DNA of 33,051 nucleotides from a virus: the IMG/VR virus record IMGVR_UViG_3300025112_000090, positions 1-33,051 of that record. The stretch is one strand, 5' to 3'. The notes below the pieces were generated by a model. That model did not search any database. It was not told the DNA's origin and saw nothing but the letters and a program-made list of their open reading frames with translations. Numbering within the stretch: position 1 is the stretch's first letter; the number at the start of each line of letters is the position of its first letter. This document shows, in pieces, positions 2,711 to 24,015 of this stretch. The position numbers and the translations under genes are program-made.

Positions 2711-3060
2711 ACTCTAAACAAGTAGAGATCATTAGCAAGGTTTTACTAGACCTACTTCCTTGCTACTGATCCCTGATCCATAGGGTTATGCTCACGGAGG
2801 CAATAGCCTTGACGGTTGACAAAGTTGCAACTTACCTATGGATCTGGGATCAGTCATTGTTGACTGTGAGAATAAACACTAGAACACGGCGTGCGCTTAC
2901 TGGATTAGGCCCCCAGCGATTGTGGTAATCAAATGTGCTCCACACCCCGCGTAGCATAGTGACTGATCATTATTTGCTGGACCCAGAGGGTGTACTAATT
3001 CCGGACAGCCTGGGTCCTGCTAATAATTGCCAGTTTAGAATGATTCTAAAAATCATTCTA
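2711..3060 (+). ncRNA. Putative structured non-coding RNA
   Basis: About 450 bases (2705-3155) lack a gene but are rich in long pairings. AGCAAGG (2734-2740) pairs with CCTTGCT (2758-2764). Directly abutting it, the 20-mer 2765-2784 pairs with 2835-2854 at 19 of 20 positions. The 17-mer 2970-2986 pairs with 3010-3026 at 15 of 17. AGAATGATT (3037-3045) pairs perfectly with AATCATTCT (3051-3059). Smaller hairpins include CAGTCA-TTGT-TGACTG (2851-2866), an alternative to part of the long stem. A promoter points into it from 2676. I could not match it to a known family; a long leader of the downstream operon is an alternative to a free-standing RNA. Confidence 0.5.
3034..3050. promoter_or_regulatory. 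Operator-like palindrome TTTAGAAT-G-ATTCTAAA
   Basis: A perfect 8-bp inverted repeat with a single central base, followed by a further half-site (ATCATTCTAAA, to 3061). A 15-bp near copy with one substitution occurs at 6573-6587. It lies upstream of the heptad repeats and promoter of the plus-strand operon, so a repressor or activator site is plausible. It also overlaps the last hairpin of the folded segment. Confidence 0.45.
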
Positions 3061-3080
3061 AAGAAGAAAGAGTAAAGCGC

Positions 3081-3108
3081 CAAGCTTCAAGCACCAAGCT
3101 TCAAGCTT
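3081..3108 (+). repeat. CAAGCNN heptad array, 4 units
   Basis: Four tandem 7-bp units: CAAGCTT, CAAGCAC, CAAGCTT, CAAGCTT. The first five bases are invariant and the last two vary. The final TT forms the first two bases of the TTGACA -35 box that begins at 3107. Confidence 0.85.
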
Positions 3109-3135
3109 GACAGCTGGTGTAGGATATGATAGGAT
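3107..3135 (+). promoter_or_regulatory. Sigma70-like promoter of the plus-strand operon
   Basis: TTGACA (3107-3112), a 17-bp spacer and TAGGAT (3130-3135) lie about 20 bp before the first ATG at 3156. The heptad array ends inside the -35 box, so the repeats occupy the position of an UP element or activator site. Confidence 0.72.
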
Positions 3136-3155
3136 GAATTTAGAAAGGAATAATT

Positions 3156-3359
3156 ATGAAACTAAAGATTAATTTTGAATGGAGAAAAAAGAACGAACCG
3201 GACTTAAATCCGGAGTTCTTGGTGAAGACAGCCCTGAAGGCTGCTGGCTACCACGTTGGACACATCGAGGTCCAGGGTGTATGGGACGAAGACAAACCAG
3301 CGACAGCTCAGGGACCATGGGATGAAACGCGGCTGCCACATGAAATGGTGGCCAAATGA
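3156..3359 (+). CDS. Small hypothetical protein of the GC-rich operon, 67 aa
   Basis: Opens with a basic segment (MKLKINFEWRKKNEPDL), followed by LVKTALKAAGYHVGHIEVQG and a tryptophan/acidic tail (VWDEDKPATAQGPWDETR). No family recognised with confidence; I recall similar first genes in marine-phage islands that carry the same repeats. AGAAAGGA precedes the ATG by 6-7 nt, and a good promoter precedes it. Its stop overlaps the next start by 4 nt (ATGA). Confidence 0.7.
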   Translation: MKLKINFEWRKKNEPDLNPEFLVKTALKAAGYHVGHIEVQGVWDEDKPATAQGPWDETRLPHEMVAK

Positions 3360-3538
3360 GTAGACGTCCCGGATTACCAATGGCCAAAGTTTATCTTGGC
3401 CATGCTCGCTGGCTCGAGGCTCAGGGTCCAAGCTACAAGCAACAAGCTTCAAGCTGCAAGCGCCAAGCTTTAGAGTTGACAAGACAGAATTACAATGTTA
3501 TTGTATCCTATAAACTAAAGGAGAAAGATAAATGCTAG
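3356..3538 (+). CDS. Hypothetical protein with a repeat-encoded C-terminus, 60 aa
   Basis: Starts MSRRPGLPMAKVYLGHARW, overlapping the previous gene by 4 nt. From about residue 25 to 38 the coding sequence is the CAAGCNN heptad array, giving glutamine/serine/lysine-rich residues (YKQQASSCKRQAL). The tail then runs through the next gene's promoter and ends 7 nt inside that gene. The repeat array has therefore become, or extended, the coding sequence. The N-terminal part may be the functional section; function unknown. Confidence 0.55.
   Translation: MSRRPGLPMAKVYLGHARWLEAQGPSYKQQASSCKRQALELTRQNYNVIVSYKLKEKDKC
3429..3470 (+). repeat. CAAGCNN heptad array, 6 units
   Basis: Six perfect-phase units (variable dinucleotides TA, AA, TT, TG, GC, TT) end 5 bp before the TTGACA at 3476. 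It is translated as part of the 60-aa upstream gene and again sits directly against a promoter. Confidence 0.88.
3476..3504 (+). promoter_or_regulatory. Promoter for the GP88-like gene
   Basis: TTGACA (3476-3481), a 17-bp spacer and TATTGT (3499-3504) precede ATG 3532 by about 27 bp. TATCCT (3504-3509) would need a 22-bp spacer and is less likely. The promoter lies inside the end of the 60-aa gene. Confidence 0.55.
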
Positions 3539-4131
3539 TTAAAGACGCTTTAAAAATTACAGACTCGTTCACTAAGACCAGCAAGATGCCCGGGCTCAGT
3601 TACTCACTTCCAGCGTGGGAGTGTAAGACCGGATGGAAGTTGTCCAAGGTCCCTGGCACGCCGTGCTTTTTCTGTTATGCTAAAAAAGGAAATTATACAC
3701 GGTACCCGGCCATCAAGGCGGCGCAATACAGACGCCTGGATGCAATTAACCATCCGCAATGGGTCGAGGCTATGGCTGCAAGAATTAAAAAGATTAAATG
3801 GTTTAGATGGCATGACGCCGGCGACGTCCAATCAAAAGAACATATGCAAAAAATTATAGAAGTATGTAAGCTCACACCGGACACGAAGCACTGGCTGCCA
3901 ACACAAGAGCGCCAGTTCCTGCCAGCTCCTGAAGAGGTTCCGGCAAATCTTGTTATAAGATTATCAAGATCCAAGATCGATGGCCCCAGCTCCAGCGCCT
4001 GGAGTCATGAGTCAGGTGTTACGACTGGTGAAGCACGGACCTGTCCAGCTCCGGATCAAAAAGGAAAATGCAACGACTGCAGAAAATGCTGGGATAAAGA
4101 AGTTCAAACTGTTATATATGGAAAACATTAA
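3532..4131 (+). CDS. GP88-like cysteine-rich phage protein, 199 aa
   Basis: Resembles the phage 'gene product 88' family as I remember it: a LSYSLPAWEC start, a cysteine pair in GTPCFFCYAKKG (C45, C48; C31 just before), the motif WFRWHDAGD (90-98) and a C-terminal cluster CPAPDQKGKCNDCRKCW (C171, C180, C183, C186). Seven clustered cysteines suggest a metal or iron-sulphur site. The biochemical role is not established to my knowledge. AAAGGAG 11-12 nt before ATG 3532 supports the start. Codon use is GC-richer than in the surrounding genes. Its end overlaps the next start by 14 nt. Confidence 0.68.
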   Translation: MLVKDALKITDSFTKTSKMPGLSYSLPAWECKTGWKLSKVPGTPCFFCYAKKGNYTRYPAIKAAQYRRLDAINHPQWVEAMAARIKKIKWFRWHDAGDVQSKEHMQKIIEVCKLTPDTKHWLPTQERQFLPAPEEVPANLVIRLSRSKIDGPSSSAWSHESGVTTGEARTCPAPDQKGKCNDCRKCWDKEVQTVIYGKH

Positions 4132-4282
4132 AACTAGATATACATTTGTTTATAGATCCAGGGACGGGCATTATATGCGCCCTGAATCATTTTTAAATAT
4201 TAATAAAGGCCGGACGCTGTCAAGCAGCCAGCTCAGGCTCTTAGGCATAACCAAGGTAAAATTAAAAGATGCACGAATTTAA
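4118..4282 (+). CDS. Small basic protein, 54 aa
   Basis: ATG at 4118 opens a 54-codon frame overlapping the end of the GP88-like gene. The product is arginine/lysine-rich with two compact segments (TRYTFVYRSRDGHYMRPESF and SSSQLRLLGITKVKL), which look like a small folded domain rather than random sequence. The frame continues upstream to an ATG at 3980, but that part is inside the GP88 gene in another frame and is not expected to be used. Function unknown. Confidence 0.55.
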   Translation: MENIKTRYTFVYRSRDGHYMRPESFLNINKGRTLSSSQLRLLGITKVKLKDARI

Positions 4283-4448
4283 ACACCCAAAATATTATAA
4301 AGAATTACGATCGATACGTAATAAACTGGATCAGGTCATTAGCAAAAGTTCTCACGACGGTGAGTCAGAGCGTGCACCTGGTCCGGGCCTTAAGCCACAA
4401 GCTTCAAGCGCCAAGCCTCAAGCTCCAAGCTCCGATAAAAATTTATAA
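4269..4448 (+). CDS. Small protein with a repeat-encoded tail, 59 aa
   Basis: ATG 4269 overlaps the end of the preceding gene by 14 nt, as elsewhere in this operon. Residues 1-35 look like a real helical protein (HPKYYKELRSIRNKLDQVI). Residues 36-41 come from a GGTCCGG-type run, and residues 42-55 are encoded by CAAGCNN heptads (KPQASSAKPQAPSS). The stop (TAA) lies in the short spacer between the two halves of the array. The last 31 bp overlap the antisense nuclease gene. Confidence 0.5.
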   Translation: MHEFKHPKYYKELRSIRNKLDQVISKSSHDGESERAPGPGLKPQASSAKPQAPSSDKNL

Positions 4449-4504
4449 CAAGCGTCAAGCCCCAAGCTGCAAGCTTCAAGCTCCAAGCCGCAAGCTTCAA
4501 GCTC
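4391..4504. repeat. CAAGCNN heptad array, 14 units in two blocks
   Basis: One degenerate plus five good units (4391-4432), a 16-bp A/T-rich spacer (4433-4448), then eight units in register (4449-4504). CAAGC is intact in 13 of 14 units while the dinucleotide varies (TT, GC, CT, TC, GT, CC, TG, CG). The array encodes protein on both strands: the tail of the 59-aa plus gene and residues 98-115 or so of the minus-strand nuclease. Confidence 0.9.
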
Positions 4505-4795
4505 CATGATTCGTGAGCCTTGGTACATTTGAAAACGATTCACGGATCTCGGACCGAGGGCCTCGGCTAGTATGAATGTGTTGTGTGGATGCTTAATATG
4601 AAACGCAATTTGATGCGGACTGAAACGCAATTTAGAACTCTTTGTGACTTTTAATTCAATAGTGAAAAAGTGGCCATTAGTATTGCAAACTAATAGATCA
4701 GGAGTGCCAAGTAAGCTAATATTTTCAAGCCTTGTAAACGAAAACTGAGGCCAAGCTTTACGTAATTTTTGGTATAGTTTAGCCTCTGGTCCCAC
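4418..4795 (-). CDS. PD-(D/E)XK nuclease-like protein, 125 aa
   Basis: LLGTPDLLVC (D33) followed by FFTIELKV (E47, K49) is the catalytic signature of small PD-(D/E)XK nucleases of the VRR-NUC or resolvase type. These cut branched DNA during replication or packaging. The start is GTG at 4795, immediately after the TAA of the preceding gene. The conserved core ends near residue 75. Residues about 78-87 come from a GGTCC-type heptad run, and residues about 98-115 from the CAAGC array (ELEACGLELEACSLGLDAC). The C-terminus therefore looks like repeat-derived extension and may be dispensable. Confidence 0.66.
   Translation of the reverse strand: MGPEAKLYQKLRKAWPQFSFTRLENISLLGTPDLLVCNTNGHFFTIELKVTKSSKLRFSPHQIAFHIKHPHNTFILAEALGPRSVNRFQMYQGSRIMELEACGLELEACSLGLDACYKFLSELGA
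4537..4563 (-). repeat. GDTCCNN heptad run in the nuclease gene
   Basis: Read on the minus strand: GGCCCTC, GGTCCGA, GATCCGT, GAATCGT. Same 7-bp phase and core as runs found in other genes of this window. Encodes part of EALGPRSVNR. Confidence 0.6.
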
Positions 4796-4974: not shown

Positions 4975-5205
4975 CTATGTATCTTTCATTAATTTACTAT
5001 CCAGATGTAATTTTTTTTCAGTCATAGTTTTCATAACTAATCTTATACCTGTCTGACCTATTAATGGATTTTCTTGTACTTCCATTCTTCTTATCTCTTC
5101 TAGGAAACCATCTCGTTCAACATAAATTCTAGCAGTGCTAATAGCATTACCTTTTAACTTATCTGTGAACGTACCTAAAAATTGTTGAAGATCTTTAACG
5201 AGCAT
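4975..5205 (-). CDS. Hypothetical protein, 76 aa
   Basis: No family recognised. Mixed charged protein (LVKDLQQFLGTFTDKLKGNA; ARIYVERDGFLEEIRRMEV) with likely helix-strand composition and no membrane segment. Starts at ATG 5205, overlapping the preceding gene by 11 nt. Second gene of the unit that begins at the divergent promoter at 5492-5533. Confidence 0.66.
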   Translation of the reverse strand: MLVKDLQQFLGTFTDKLKGNAISTARIYVERDGFLEEIRRMEVQENPLIGQTGIRLVMKTMTEKKLHLDSKLMKDT

Positions 5206-5494
5206 TGTTTCTCATGTTTAAAATATCATCTATTTCTTTTGCTAAACGTTTATTATCTAACTTTAATTCTTGTACTTCTCTAATCTTTACACCCAATAAA
5301 TCTTTATCTGTTTGATGCATCATAATATAATCTCTCATATTCATTCTCAATTTATCTATAATTTTATCTTTATCATCTAGTCTACGCTCTAAATCTAATG
5401 GACCTCTATCATCATTTGTGATAGTAGACTCATTTTCATGACTTATGTCTTCACCATGTTCTTTGTGATTTACATACGTACGTTTATCTTTCAT
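5195..5494 (-). CDS. Coiled-coil early protein, 99 aa
   Basis: N-terminal 30 residues are polar and histidine/glutamate-rich; the C-terminal 70 form a long charged helix (ERRLDDKDKIIDKLRMNMR; VQELKLDNKRLAKEIDDI) with coiled-coil character. No enzymatic motif. ATG 5494 lies 6 nt after the predicted -10 box TATATT, so the A of ATG should be transcript position +1 and the mRNA leaderless. No room exists for a Shine-Dalgarno site. Transcribed divergently from the small terminase gene. Confidence 0.68.
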   Translation of the reverse strand: MKDKRTYVNHKEHGEDISHENESTITNDDRGPLDLERRLDDKDKIIDKLRMNMRDYIMMHQTDKDLLGVKIREVQELKLDNKRLAKEIDDILNMRNNAR

Positions 5495-5533
5495 ATTGAC
5501 AATATAGTCATGTTACCTTAAATTGTCAATATG
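5492..5533. promoter_or_regulatory. Mirror-image divergent promoter with both start codons at its ends
   Basis: Left arm 5492-5506 (CATATTGACAATATA) and right arm 5519-5533 (TAAATTGTCAATATG) are inverted repeats matching at 14 of 15 positions around a 12-bp centre. Plus direction: TTGACA 5496-5501, 17 bp, TAAATT 5519-5524, GTCAAT, ATG 5531. Minus direction: TTGACA 5529-5524, 17 bp, TATATT 5506-5501, GTCAAT, ATG 5494. Each arm holds one gene's -10 box and start codon plus the other gene's -35 box. Confidence 0.8.
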
Positions 5534-6070
5534 GGAGTTCCAAAAAGATTAACAGAAATGCAAAAAAGATTTGCTGAATATTTAGTATTCAATGAAGGCA
5601 GAACTACGGCAAAAGAAGCTGCTCTTGAAGCAGGATATAGTTCTAAAAGAGCAAGACAAGAAGGATCAGAATTACAGAATCCTAGACTATCACCATTAGT
5701 AGTACAATACATTGGAGCATTAAGAGAAGAAAAATTAAAGAAATATGAAGTTACCTACGACAAACATGTAGCAGAACTTGGTAAAATTAGAGAGGCAGCT
5801 TTAAAGAAGAATGCTTTTTCCGCTGCGACCAACGCTGAAAAAAATCGTGGCATGGCTGCAGGATTATATATAGACAGAAAGATAATAAAAACAGGTAAAC
5901 TAGAGGACCTATCAGAAGAAGAATTAGAATTAAAAATGAAAAAAATACTAGATGACTACGCGCCGATTTTAAATGCAAAGGTTGTTGAGGCATTACCAGA
6001 AGAAGTTAATGAATCTTTGTCACCTTCTTCACACAAGAAGTCGGAAACACAGACCTCTCAGAAAAAGTAA
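5531..6070 (+). CDS. Terminase small subunit-like protein, 179 aa
   Basis: Begins GVPKRLTEMQKRFAEYLVFN and contains AALEAGYSSKRARQEGSEL, then SPLVVQYIGALREEKLKKY. This matches the N-terminal helix-turn-helix pattern of the terminase small subunit family (TerS): LT.kQ..FaeeY, a-eAGYS, a..qg..LL, v.e.i. TerS recognises phage DNA to start packaging. The C-terminal half is charged and helical (SEEELELKMKKILDDYAPI), suited to oligomerisation. ATG 5531 lies 6 nt after its predicted -10 box, so the mRNA may be leaderless. Its 3' end overlaps a convergent gene by 65 bp. A phage transcriptional regulator with the same HTH is the main alternative. Confidence 0.66.
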   Translation: MGVPKRLTEMQKRFAEYLVFNEGRTTAKEAALEAGYSSKRARQEGSELQNPRLSPLVVQYIGALREEKLKKYEVTYDKHVAELGKIREAALKKNAFSAATNAEKNRGMAAGLYIDRKIIKTGKLEDLSEEELELKMKKILDDYAPILNAKVVEALPEEVNESLSPSSHKKSETQTSQKK

Positions 6071-7716: not shown

Positions 7717-8100
7717 CTAAGGTCCTCCTAAATATGCCATACCATTAACAGTAGGTTTGTTTTTTGGAACGTACATAGTGTATTTTAAAGTTAATTCTTC
7801 TCCAGCTTTTATATTTTTTATAACGGTAATAGTCCATTTATCAAATCCTGGTTTCATTCTAATTTGAATACGATGACAATTGGGTTCTTCGCTATGATTA
7901 ATAAAACCACCTAAAGGAGTTCTAATTAATAAATTTTCATTTTCTTCGTGGTGAATAGAACTTATTCCAGAGGTGTCTATTCGATAATGCGACTCTCCTA
8001 AATTACACCCCACACTTAAATCTCTTGTGGTAAAAACTCCCTGGCCCTCGATGCCTGAGTCTTTAATTATAAGTCCGTCTGGTAAAGGTTTATAATCCAT
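7717..8100 (-). CDS. SET-domain protein, putative protein lysine methyltransferase, 127 aa
   Basis: Matches the SET fold at three places: GIEGQGVFTTRDLSVG (16-31), GGFINHSEEPNCHRI (64-78) with the NHS..PNC signature, and VIKNIKAGEELTLKYT (93-108), the GEEL..Y cofactor/active-site end. At 127 residues it is a minimal SET domain without pre- or post-SET cysteine regions. Family members transfer methyl groups from S-adenosylmethionine to protein lysines; the target here is unknown. Candidates are host or virion proteins. It overlaps the upstream LAGLIDADG gene by 11 nt. Confidence 0.78.
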   Translation of the reverse strand: MDYKPLPDGLIIKDSGIEGQGVFTTRDLSVGCNLGESHYRIDTSGISSIHHEENENLLIRTPLGGFINHSEEPNCHRIQIRMKPGFDKWTITVIKNIKAGEELTLKYTMYVPKNKPTVNGMAYLGGP

Positions 8101-8530
8101 TTTTCTTAACCTCTCTGTATTCGTCCAATGATATTACATTATCTTTCAAAGCAATAGTTGTATAATGCTCGATCACTTGTTGAATTTTTGGTAACTTTGT
8201 ATGCGCAAACGGCCATATCAAACAACACCCATAATATGCATCTCTAAATGTACATCGCCATCTGTATTGTTTTAAATAAGGTGTACCATCCACTCTTAAA
8301 CCCTTAACCTTTTTAGGTGTCAGTGTACCAACTCCTAAGACTTCATGAAGCCACATCAAAACAGATCTGTCTGTCATTGTGATCTCCATACTGAGTCTTA
8401 GACTATTAGATAATCTATATCCTGGTTTACCTTTATGTTTTTTCTTTTTCTCTATCCCTCGTCTAATATGAATTGAACCTTCACCATCAAACAATCCTGC
8501 TATATAAGCTTTGTCTACATCAGGTACCAT
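8090..8530 (-). CDS. Free-standing LAGLIDADG homing endonuclease-like protein, 146 aa
   Basis: YIAGLFDGEGSI (9-20) is a LAGLIDADG motif with the catalytic acidic residue present (E17 position). A later block (KLPKIQQVIEHY) fits the family's second half. A single motif and 146 residues predict a homodimer. Such enzymes cut a long asymmetric site and spread their own gene. It is not inside an intron or intein in this window, so it is free-standing. GGTGG precedes ATG 8530 by 6 nt. Domestication as a DNA-binding protein cannot be excluded. Confidence 0.78.
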   Translation of the reverse strand: MVPDVDKAYIAGLFDGEGSIHIRRGIEKKKKHKGKPGYRLSNSLRLSMEITMTDRSVLMWLHEVLGVGTLTPKKVKGLRVDGTPYLKQYRWRCTFRDAYYGCCLIWPFAHTKLPKIQQVIEHYTTIALKDNVISLDEYREVKKNGL

Positions 8531-21633: not shown

Positions 21634-22182
21634 TTATTGTTTCCTTTTTATTGTTGTTTTATTTCCAACGAATACGTTGAAAAGTTCCGTTGGCATTTCT
21701 TTACCTGCCTCAATACGCTCACGGACTAACGCTTTGAGAGTCATAGGCTCAACCTTCAACTTTTGTGTCGGTTGATAACCTTGACTCTCTGCAAGAACAG
21801 CATAATCAGCTGCCTTGTTATCTTCGTTTCGTCCAAAGGACACGGATATCTCGTTTTTGATTATATCCCCTAGATTATTTTCACGAAGCCAGTTAAACGC
21901 CGCTTCTCTATTTGCTATAGTGATGTTGGCGCTATAATTTGGTTTAACATCTACTGAAGAACCATCCATAAGCTTTAAATGAGATAAACCCATTTCAGCC
22001 ATCATAGTCGGAATTACTTCTCCAGATAAATGTTCAAAATCTTTTTTCTTTTCTTTTAAATCATCTTCTTGTTTTTTTATTTGTGTTTGAAGATTTTCTA
22101 ATCTTTCTACTTGATCTGCTAACGACCTAATGTTGTCTGTTTTTTGCAAAACATTTGCTCTATCTGTTTCAAAATCAATCAT
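21634..22182 (-). CDS. Replication-module protein with coiled-coil start, 182 aa
   Basis: Residues 15-55 form a coiled coil (QVERLENLQTQIKKQEDDL). A compact domain follows (GEVIPTMMAEMGLSHLKLMD; ITIANREAAFNWLRENNLGD; IIKNEISVSFGRNEDNKA), then ALVRERIEAGKEMPTELF and a basic C-terminus. I recall this as conserved in marine phage replication modules, without a firm function. It ends 3 nt before the ssDNA-binding-like gene and overlaps the upstream gene by 8 nt. Confidence 0.66.
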   Translation of the reverse strand: MIDFETDRANVLQKTDNIRSLADQVERLENLQTQIKKQEDDLKEKKKDFEHLSGEVIPTMMAEMGLSHLKLMDGSSVDVKPNYSANITIANREAAFNWLRENNLGDIIKNEISVSFGRNEDNKAADYAVLAESQGYQPTQKLKVEPMTLKALVRERIEAGKEMPTELFNVFVGNKTTIKRKQ

Positions 22183-22531
22183 CTATCTTTCCTCTTTCAT
22201 ATAAGTTAATTTCAATAGGATAATATTGTCTTTCTTGCTTATCCCATTTTAATAATCTGTATTTACCATTTGTCATGTCAGAAACTATAGAACATGCAAC
22301 ACCTATAATAGCAGGATCACCAGTCAATAATAAATAATCTTCTGTCGTAAAATCTTTTAATGCTTTTCTTAATTTAAAAATTAACGGACCAGGAGAAAAT
22401 ATTATTTGTGAAAATTCTGGTAATAAGAATTCAAACTTACCATATTTAGCTGCCCCCATAATATTAATTTTAGGTGCACCTGATTGAGTACCAGCAACTT
22501 CTTGTATTACATAAACTGTATTTTCTTTCAT
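22175..22531 (-). CDS. Hypothetical protein starting the replication unit, 118 aa
   Basis: Strand-rich soluble protein (ENTVYVIQEVAGTQSGAPKI; FEFLLPEFSQIIFSPGPLIF; DYLLLTGDPAIIGVACSIV) ending in an aromatic/basic tail. No family recognised. ATG 22531 lies 7 nt after the predicted -10 box, leaving no room for a ribosome site, so a leaderless mRNA is predicted. A TTG at 22540 would fall inside the promoter and is rejected. First gene of the 22531-15772 replication group. Confidence 0.66.
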   Translation of the reverse strand: MKENTVYVIQEVAGTQSGAPKINIMGAAKYGKFEFLLPEFSQIIFSPGPLIFKLRKALKDFTTEDYLLLTGDPAIIGVACSIVSDMTNGKYRLLKWDKQERQYYPIEINLYERGKIDD

Positions 22532-22569
22532 ACTTGACAATATAGTTATAAATGTTATGTTGTCAACTA
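22531..22569. promoter_or_regulatory. Interleaved divergent promoters, replication unit versus SNF2 gene
   Basis: Minus: TTGACA (22566 to 22561), 16 bp, TATATT (22544 to 22539), then 7 nt to ATG 22531. Plus: TTGACA (22534-22539), 16 bp, TATGTT (22556-22561), then a leader with an AGAAAGAAG site before ATG 22585. Near-symmetric arms (ACTTGACAATATA and TATGTTGTCAACT) repeat the design of 5492-5533. Confidence 0.7.
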
Positions 22570-22584
22570 GAAAGAAGAAAAATT

Positions 22585-24015
22585 ATGAACTATAAATTTA
22601 AAACAAAACCATACGCTCATCAAATGACTGCGTTAGAAAAGTCATGGAACAGAGAAACTTATGCCTATTTTATGGAAATGGGTACAGGTAAAACAAAAGT
22701 ATTGATTGATAACGCTGCTATGCTTTATGATAAAGGCAAAATTAATGGTGCCTTAATTGTAGCTCCTAAAGGTGTTGTTGGCACTTGGTATAGTAATGAA
22801 TTGCCTACACATTTACCAGACCACATAGAAAATGTGTCTGTATTATGGCAAGCTAATATTTTTAAAAAACAACAAGAAAAATTAGAAACGTTATATGAAA
22901 TAGAGACAGCTTTACATATTTTAATTATGAATGTTGAAGCTTTTAGTACAACTAAAGGTGTTGATTTTGCCAAGAAATTTTTATCATGTCATGATACTTT
23001 AATGGCTATTGATGAGTCTACTACTATTAAAACACCTTCTGCAAAAAGAACTAAAAACATTTTAGCATTAGCTAAAGAAGCTAAATATAGAAGAATAATG
23101 ACGGGTTCTCCGGTCACAAAAAATCCATTAGATTTATATTCTCAATGTTATTTTTTAAGTCCGTGGTCCTTAGACTTTTCTTCATATTATGCATTTAGAA
23201 ATAGATACGCAGAAATGAAAACATTACACATGCATGGTAGACAAATACAGGTTGTTAATGGTTTTAAAAATTTGGGTGAATTATCTGATAAAATTAAAGA
23301 TTTTTCTTATCGTGTATTAAAAGAAGATTGCCTAGATTTACCTGATAAAATATTTATTAAACGTCAAATTACTTTGTCACCAGATCAAAAAAAACTTTAT
23401 GATCAAATGAAAAAACAAGCATTAGCTATTCTTAATGGTAAGCAAAGTACAACTGTAAACGCATTAACTCAATTAATGAGATTACATCAAATTACTTGTG
23501 GTCATTTTACTGATGATAATGGTGGAACTCAACCTATTGAAAATAATAGAATAAGTGAACTTATGGATGTGCTTGAAGATGTTGAAGGTAAAGCCATTAT
23601 ATGGGCTCACTATCAATATGATATTAATCAAATTATCAAAGCTGTGGTAGCAAAATATGGTCCGGGGTCCGTGGTTGACTATTTTGGATTAACGCCAAAA
23701 GATGAAAGACAAGACAATATTAAGCGTTTTCAGGATGACCCTAAGTGCCGGTTTTTTGTTGGAACGCCCTCTACGGGCGGCTATGGGATAACTTTAACGG
23801 CTGCAAACACGGTTATATACTATTCTAACGGATATGACCTAGAGAAGCGATTACAGTCCGAGGACCGTGCTCACCGAATCGGGCAGAAAAAACCTGTGAC
23901 TTATGTTGATATTAATGCGCAAGATACAGTCGATGAAAAGATTGTTAAGGCTTTAAGAAAGAAAATTAATATTGCTTCTGAAGTATTGGGTGAAGAACTA
24001 AAGTCATGGATTTAG
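22585..24015 (+). CDS. SNF2-family DEAD/H helicase-like ATPase, 476 aa
   Basis: Motif I MEMGTGKTKVL (30-40), motif Ia LIVAPKGVVGTW, motif II AIDESTTIKT (141-150), motif III RIMTGSPVTKNP, and the C-terminal RecA-like domain with ATGs such as FVGTPSTGGYGITLTAAN and motif VI QSEDRAHRIGQKKPV. This is the SNF2 signature. Phage members are thought to remodel protein-DNA complexes or recombination intermediates. It is the only large gene on the plus strand here. Two GDTCCNN runs encode SPWSL and GPGSVVDY. An in-frame ATG upstream (22552) lies in the promoter; ATG 22585 is preferred. Confidence 0.88.
   Translation: MNYKFKTKPYAHQMTALEKSWNRETYAYFMEMGTGKTKVLIDNAAMLYDKGKINGALIVAPKGVVGTWYSNELPTHLPDHIENVSVLWQANIFKKQQEKLETLYEIETALHILIMNVEAFSTTKGVDFAKKFLSCHDTLMAIDESTTIKTPSAKRTKNILALAKEAKYRRIMTGSPVTKNPLDLYSQCYFLSPWSLDFSSYYAFRNRYAEMKTLHMHGRQIQVVNGFKNLGELSDKIKDFSYRVLKEDCLDLPDKIFIKRQITLSPDQKKLYDQMKKQALAILNGKQSTTVNALTQLMRLHQITCGHFTDDNGGTQPIENNRISELMDVLEDVEGKAIIWAHYQYDINQIIKAVVAKYGPGSVVDYFGLTPKDERQDNIKRFQDDPKCRFFVGTPSTGGYGITLTAANTVIYYSNGYDLEKRLQSEDRAHRIGQKKPVTYVDINAQDTVDEKIVKALRKKINIASEVLGEELKSWI
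23159..23171 (+). repeat. GDTCCNN heptad pair in the SNF2 gene (1)
   Basis: Units GTCCGT (shortened, with AGTCCGT in phase) and GGTCCTT on the plus strand; here the gene is on the plus strand too, so the run keeps its orientation while its coding sense differs from the other sites. Confidence 0.5.
23659..23679 (+). repeat. GDTCCNN heptad run in the SNF2 gene (2)
   Basis: Plus-strand units GGTCCGG, GGTCCGT, GGTTGAC in 7-bp phase; encodes GPGSVVD in the second RecA-like domain. Confidence 0.7.

Follow-up and report, generated by a model that had tools for sequence, protein, structure and literature searches.

Our analysis of a 33-kb virus record, IMGVR_UViG_3300025112_000090, points to two promoters for the host RNA polymerase that, in all likelihood, occupy a single footprint and produce leaderless mRNAs both ways. 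One transcript would encode the small subunit of the terminase and the other a coiled-coil-like protein. The whole record (33,051 nt) was analyzed and is referred to here as the window. The PolA protein of the window phage is 64% identical to that of 023Pt_psg01, 63% to that of HTVC027P, and 53% to that of HTVC023P; the terminase small subunits of the window phage and HTVC027P share 61% identity. The published threshold for inclusion among the HTVC023P-type pelagiphages is a PolA similarity of at least 45%, and by this relatedness the window phage falls within the group, which is its best placement on protein comparison. HTVC027P infects the SAR11 strain HTCC1062, and a SAR11-type host is inferred for the window phage as well. 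HTVC027P lacks an RNA polymerase gene and depends on the host enzyme (PMC12753301), which fits sites of the sigma70 type. Public RNA-seq of HTVC027P infection is deposited under BioProject PRJNA1253180.

The element, hereafter site 1, lies between two divergent genes and comprises the following features.

5492-5533, both directions: mirror promoter (site 1), a 34-bp core at 5496-5529 plus two start codons
5496-5501, plus strand: -35 box TTGACA of the plus promoter, between the -10 box of the minus promoter and its ATG
5519-5524, plus strand: -10 box (TAAATT), plus promoter; the TAA within it is a stop codon that precedes the plus gene in frame
5524-5529, minus strand: -35 box (TTGACA), minus promoter
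5501-5506, minus strand: -10 box (TATATT), minus promoter
5512-5517, plus strand: asymmetric spacer box GTTACC, between both -10 boxes and near-invariant in 70 unique 34-bp cores
5531-6070, plus strand: terminase small subunit gene, predicted leaderless, with its ATG at the predicted +1
5195-5494, minus strand: gene for a 99-amino-acid coiled-coil-like protein, predicted leaderless, with the -10 box 6 nt from the ATG

On the plus strand, the element reads CAT-A-TTGACA-ATATAGTCATGTTACCT-TAAATT-GTCAAT-ATG; on the minus strand, the order is TTGACA, 17 bp, TATATT, GTCAAT, ATG. A spacer of 17 bp separates the -35 box from the -10 box in the plus direction (5496-5501 and 5519-5524) as in the minus direction (5529-5524 and 5506-5501), and 6 nt separate each -10 box from its ATG (5531 and 5494), so that the spacings given in a first-pass annotation of this DNA were recovered on both strands. 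The box coordinates likewise agree with its description of each arm as containing one gene's -10 box and start codon together with the -35 box of the opposite gene. The arm at 5492-5506, CATATTGACAATATA, matches the reverse complement of 5519-5533, CATATTGACAATTTA, at 14 of 15 positions, which confirms the 42-bp mirror element with 15-bp arms that had been claimed. The two start codons are separated by 36 bp. The two promoters agree with the consensus at 11/12 and 10/12 positions, are the strongest promoter matches in the neighborhood, and represent overlapping divergent sigma70 promoters in the broad sense (spacing of 16 to 18 bp, both strands, common DNA). In-frame TAA stops inside the element, 4 codons ahead of the plus ATG and 7 codons ahead of the minus ATG, exclude an alternative ATG, GTG, or TTG start in both frames. 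Profile matches to phrog_51 (E = 4.6e-13) and to PF03592, Terminase_2 (E = 6.6e-8), uphold the naming of the plus gene as a terminase small subunit; the coiled-coil label of the minus gene has only weak Pfam matches of that type, below cut-off.

Each arm has 15 positions, of which 14 belong to the start codon (CAT), the -35 box (TTGACA), or most of the opposite -10 box (ATATA). The mirror symmetry thus follows from the placement of two promoters and two start codons at this offset, and a separate palindromic operator is unnecessary to account for it. With an ATG required on each side, the promoter geometry occurred once in the window and in none of 100 dinucleotide shuffles (7 times when the ATG requirement was dropped). 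The bare inverted repeat is mildly unusual and less exceptional than the promoter geometry: it occurred once in the window, was absent from 10 of 12 shuffles, and was found 1 and 5 times in the remaining two.

To assess conservation, we collected 80 loci by a terminase protein search alone (best-segment identity, 77 to 92%). The site 1 core was present in 80/80 of these relatives, and because of this recurrence in protein-selected loci we judge it to be non-random; the counted loci include many related phages and hence are not independent. Loss of one arm with retention of both genes, named in the first-pass annotation as the case that would speak against it, was sought in the 80 relatives and not found. 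The core measures 34 bp in 70/72 unique flanked cores and 33 bp in the other 2. Within the core, the promoter boxes are near-invariant, as is a GTTACCY stretch; the positions right outside it vary. On the plus side, the distance from the -10 box to the ATG was 6 nt in 57 unique sites, 7 nt in 12, and 23 nt in 1, with no ATG within 25 nt in 2; leaderless spacing (6 to 7 nt) was therefore found in 69/70 unique sites with an ATG at most 25 nt from the core. On the minus side, this distance was 6 nt in 35 unique sites, 7 in 2, 8 in 30, 9 in 1, and 10 in 4, that is, leaderless spacing (6 to 8 nt) in 67/72. Shine-Dalgarno-like 4-mers were found at 0/64 plus and 0/67 minus sites (131 tested) versus 18/37 of the other window genes. 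In two loci (L013 and L018), an insertion of about 40 bp containing TAGCCA...TGGCTA lies between the core and the terminase ATG and gives the terminase a leader, and a further exception (L020) has a different ORF first beside the core. The minus protein has variable N-termini, from which gene swapping on that side was suspected; this idea was dropped, as 73/78 of the proteins form one family.

A second set of 81 loci was obtained by the HTVC027P search. The 33-bp core, with altered hexamers and nearby ATGs on both sides, was present in 60 of them, and the pattern was missing from 21. The hexamers in this HTVC027P clade are TTGATT/TTGATA and TTGCAA/TTGCAA (for example, in the cores TTGATTTATAGACTAAGTTGTATTAAATATCAA and TTGCAATATAATCTAAGTTGTATTATATTGCAA), and the plus -10 box is weak (TAAATA). 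The minus ATG lies 3 nt outside the core and the plus ATG nearly always 2 nt outside. The minus gene belongs to a single family; gene swapping is restricted to the plus side, where six unrelated ORF families (terminase, ArfA-like, and four others) all start near the core. These unrelated genes provide the strongest comparative argument that the promoter would set the position of the start codon. Compensatory change between the arms of this clade was weak: 3 pairs had changed on both sides, 3/500 shuffles reached the covariation score, and two slid controls (-3 and -2) gave higher ones. Further afield, the records of the more distant HTVC023P, 023Pt_psg01, and DSL-LC04 held no match to the pattern and no mirror promoter upstream of the terminase gene. 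In cellular genomes, a strict site pattern, which would miss site 1 too, gave 4 scattered hits, only 1 of which had an ATG at leaderless distance, and this on a single side.

The earlier prediction that each transcript begins at its own start codon draws support from the conserved distance between -10 box and ATG, from the lack of Shine-Dalgarno motifs, and from the unrelated genes at the same start, and leaderless transcription in both directions is a well-supported prediction from these comparisons. We propose that a host sigma70-type RNA polymerase would read an interlocked bidirectional promoter, in which two near-consensus promoters stand back to back; the -35 boxes are 28 bp apart, and each of them lies between the opposite -10 box and start codon. 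From -10 boxes placed 6 to 8 nt from the ATG, RNA would start at the start codon or at most about 2 bases before it, and the leaderless mRNA would be translated without a Shine-Dalgarno sequence. With one footprint over both promoters, the polymerase would bind in one direction at a time, and the terminase side and the coiled-coil side would be coupled via polymerase competition, which the geometry makes probable.

GTTACC is part of the spacer in each direction, and its conservation is left unaccounted for by a purely sigma70 reading. The HTVC027P clade has AAGTTGTA in its place, and since neither box is necessary for -35/-10 recognition, a regulator or another function may read them. With a fairly low probability, one trans-acting factor would recognize this asymmetric sequence (GTTACC, or, for the HTVC027P clade, AAGTTGTA) and determine in which direction the mirror promoter works.

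The first-pass annotation had gone further and described a built-in either/or choice, in which occupancy of the common site would commit transcription to either the coiled-coil gene or the terminase gene. The two promoters overlap fully, and simultaneous binding would be sterically excluded on geometric grounds. Their near-consensus boxes (11/12 and 10/12) represent the condition under which competition was seen in E. coli, where bidirectional promoters compete to an extent that matters only if a direction is strong (PMC12825309). Exclusion in time nevertheless differs from a stable choice, and no regulator was identified for such a switch. Moreover, polymerases leave promoters fast, and an infected cell contains many genome copies. 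In HTVC027P, the plus-side gene gp30 is highly expressed at 3 h and again at 12 to 15 h (PMC12753301), the one observation on timing that we found. Overlap would give competition and not a switch; the either/or choice is not supported, and we doubt that a directional decision adds to the explanation by interlocked leaderless promoters.

Alternatively, longer transcripts from upstream might serve for the translation of both genes, the element not being the main promoter. The two relatives with an insertion do tolerate a spacer ahead of the terminase ATG, but the element has the strongest promoter matches nearby, neither gene has a Shine-Dalgarno sequence, the distance to the ATG is conserved, and an upstream promoter would need to sit within the opposite gene; we consider this origin of the transcripts very unlikely. 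We give an equally low probability to an operator, in which a dimeric regulator would bind ATTGWCAAT arms and the promoter hexamers would be incidental. Each window arm is nearly palindromic on its own (ATATTGACAATAT), repressors typically use symmetric sites, and longer palindromes surround the 34-bp geometry in other phages (L299, L322, and L375). However, the arms of the relatives retain the promoter hexamers and lose the arm palindrome (AATGTCAAG, AAAGTCAA), the hexamers of the HTVC027P clade shift to TTGATT/TTGCAA while the ATGs stay put, the window has only 3 copies of ATTGWCAAT, 2 of them at site 1, and the fixed distance from -10 box to ATG is unexplained by an operator. This reading was rejected because the arm palindromes are not conserved. 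Least probable of all, and by our estimate highly improbable, is a recombination boundary, site-specific or homologous, at which genes are swapped: 10- to 11-bp inverted arms around an asymmetric conserved center resemble the 34-bp sites of tyrosine recombinases, the HTVC027P clade exchanges unrelated ORFs at the plus-side ATG, and the window phage encodes an exonuclease (phrog_298), but a recombination site has no need of sigma70 hexamers at promoter spacing or of ATGs at a fixed distance, integrase is absent from the HTVC027P annotation, and short homology by itself can produce gene swapping.

The window contains a second mirror promoter, site 2, between a Pam3_gp32-like gene and a gene for an SNF2-type helicase.

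22529-22566, both directions: second mirror promoter (site 2), with a 33-bp core at 22534-22566 and TTGACA at each end
22539-22544, minus strand: -10 box TATATT, 16-bp spacer
22556-22561, plus strand: -10-like box TATGTT, 16-bp spacer
22175-22531, minus strand: Pam3_gp32-like gene (PF23992, E = 1.4e-32), predicted leaderless, 7 nt from -10 box to ATG
22585-24015, plus strand: SNF2-type helicase gene (PF00176, E = 4.2e-20), predicted leadered, 23 nt from -10 box to ATG

Its core, TTGACA-N21-TGTCAA, is kept in relatives, in many cases as an exact TTGACAATATA-N12-TATATTGTCAA. A scan that left the spacing free (N of 0 to 30) found N12 in 121 cases, N11 in 7, and N25 in 1, counts that are dominated by site 2 in related phages. 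The transcribed starts of both sides of site 2 have GAAAGAA in common (ATGAAAGAA and CTAGAAAGAAG). In two loci (L310 and L388), an ORF of 478 to 505 amino acids with the start MKDYKI(I/V)I(V/L)GGG replaces the Pam3_gp32-like gene on the leaderless side. A geometry of 33 to 35 bp also occurs, with leaders, in some unrelated phages; geometry alone is therefore not unique, and leaderless use is the distinctive part. In L299, L322, and L375, the 34-bp geometry lies within a longer palindrome, ACCATTTGTGG-TTGACACAATA..., with no ATG at leaderless distance on either side, and the element looks like an operator-promoter.

Some other features of the window were recorded in passing. A dyad, TTGACAATAGGATAGTCAAG, lies at 2676-2704 upstream of the gene at 1678-2658, together with a plus-strand TTGACA-17-TATATT promoter match. 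Units resembling CAAGCTTCAAGCTCCAAGC are repeated at about 4400-4520, in a G+C-richer stretch (45% for 3001-4500), and a LAGLIDADG-like domain match is found at 8090-8530 (PF00961, E = 3.8e-6). The TAGGATA motif was not enriched (8 occurrences versus 5.1 expected).

Site 1 resembles the bidirectional promoters of Warman and Grainger in its pseudo-symmetric DNA and, by prediction, in the two orientations of sigma70 RNA polymerase and in steric exclusion (PMC12825309, PMC10268837). In that class, the -10 elements overlap and the divergent start sites lie 7 to 25 bp apart on opposite strands (PMC10268837), typically 18 bp, and leaderless output is not a class feature. Site 1 differs: a distance of 37 bp separates its predicted starts (5494 and 5531), its separate -10 boxes (5501-5506 and 5519-5524) form no overlapping near-symmetric element, and each -35 box overlaps the opposite discriminator. 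The telomere phage PY54 is similar in that its divergent genes cI and cro are both transcribed, as mapped by RACE, into leaderless mRNAs starting at the AUG, as predicted for the gene pair at site 1; it differs in having separate promoters, a longer intergenic region, a Cro operator, and a temperate immunity switch, and no mirrored interlocked core is described (PMC4488713). Another likeness is with lambda PRM/cI, where a phage mRNA starts at the AUG beside a divergent promoter. PRM is under CI/Cro operator control and the divergent PR transcript has a leader, and in both respects lambda differs from site 1. The leaderlessness of lambda cI is mentioned in PMC4488713. The plasmid pLS20 has overlapping divergent promoters that belong to a genetic switch and differs in that they control conjugation with DNA looping (PMC4207663). 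Overlapping divergent promoters and leaderless divergent phage genes are thus already established; in the literature searched, we found no description of a promoter with two leaderless sides on one interlocked, mirrored core.

If the start sites are confirmed, site 1 would be a near-minimal control region for two genes, with two complete promoters in 36 bp and without leaders. It is conserved in a large and widespread group of ocean phages whose relatives infect SAR11 bacteria. Should a factor indeed read the asymmetric box, the element would constitute a minimal promoter whose direction can be selected in the course of infection, serving two leaderless genes. Site 1 would also be a compact natural system in which to test how leaderless mRNAs are translated in SAR11 hosts and how polymerases compete where promoters interlock.
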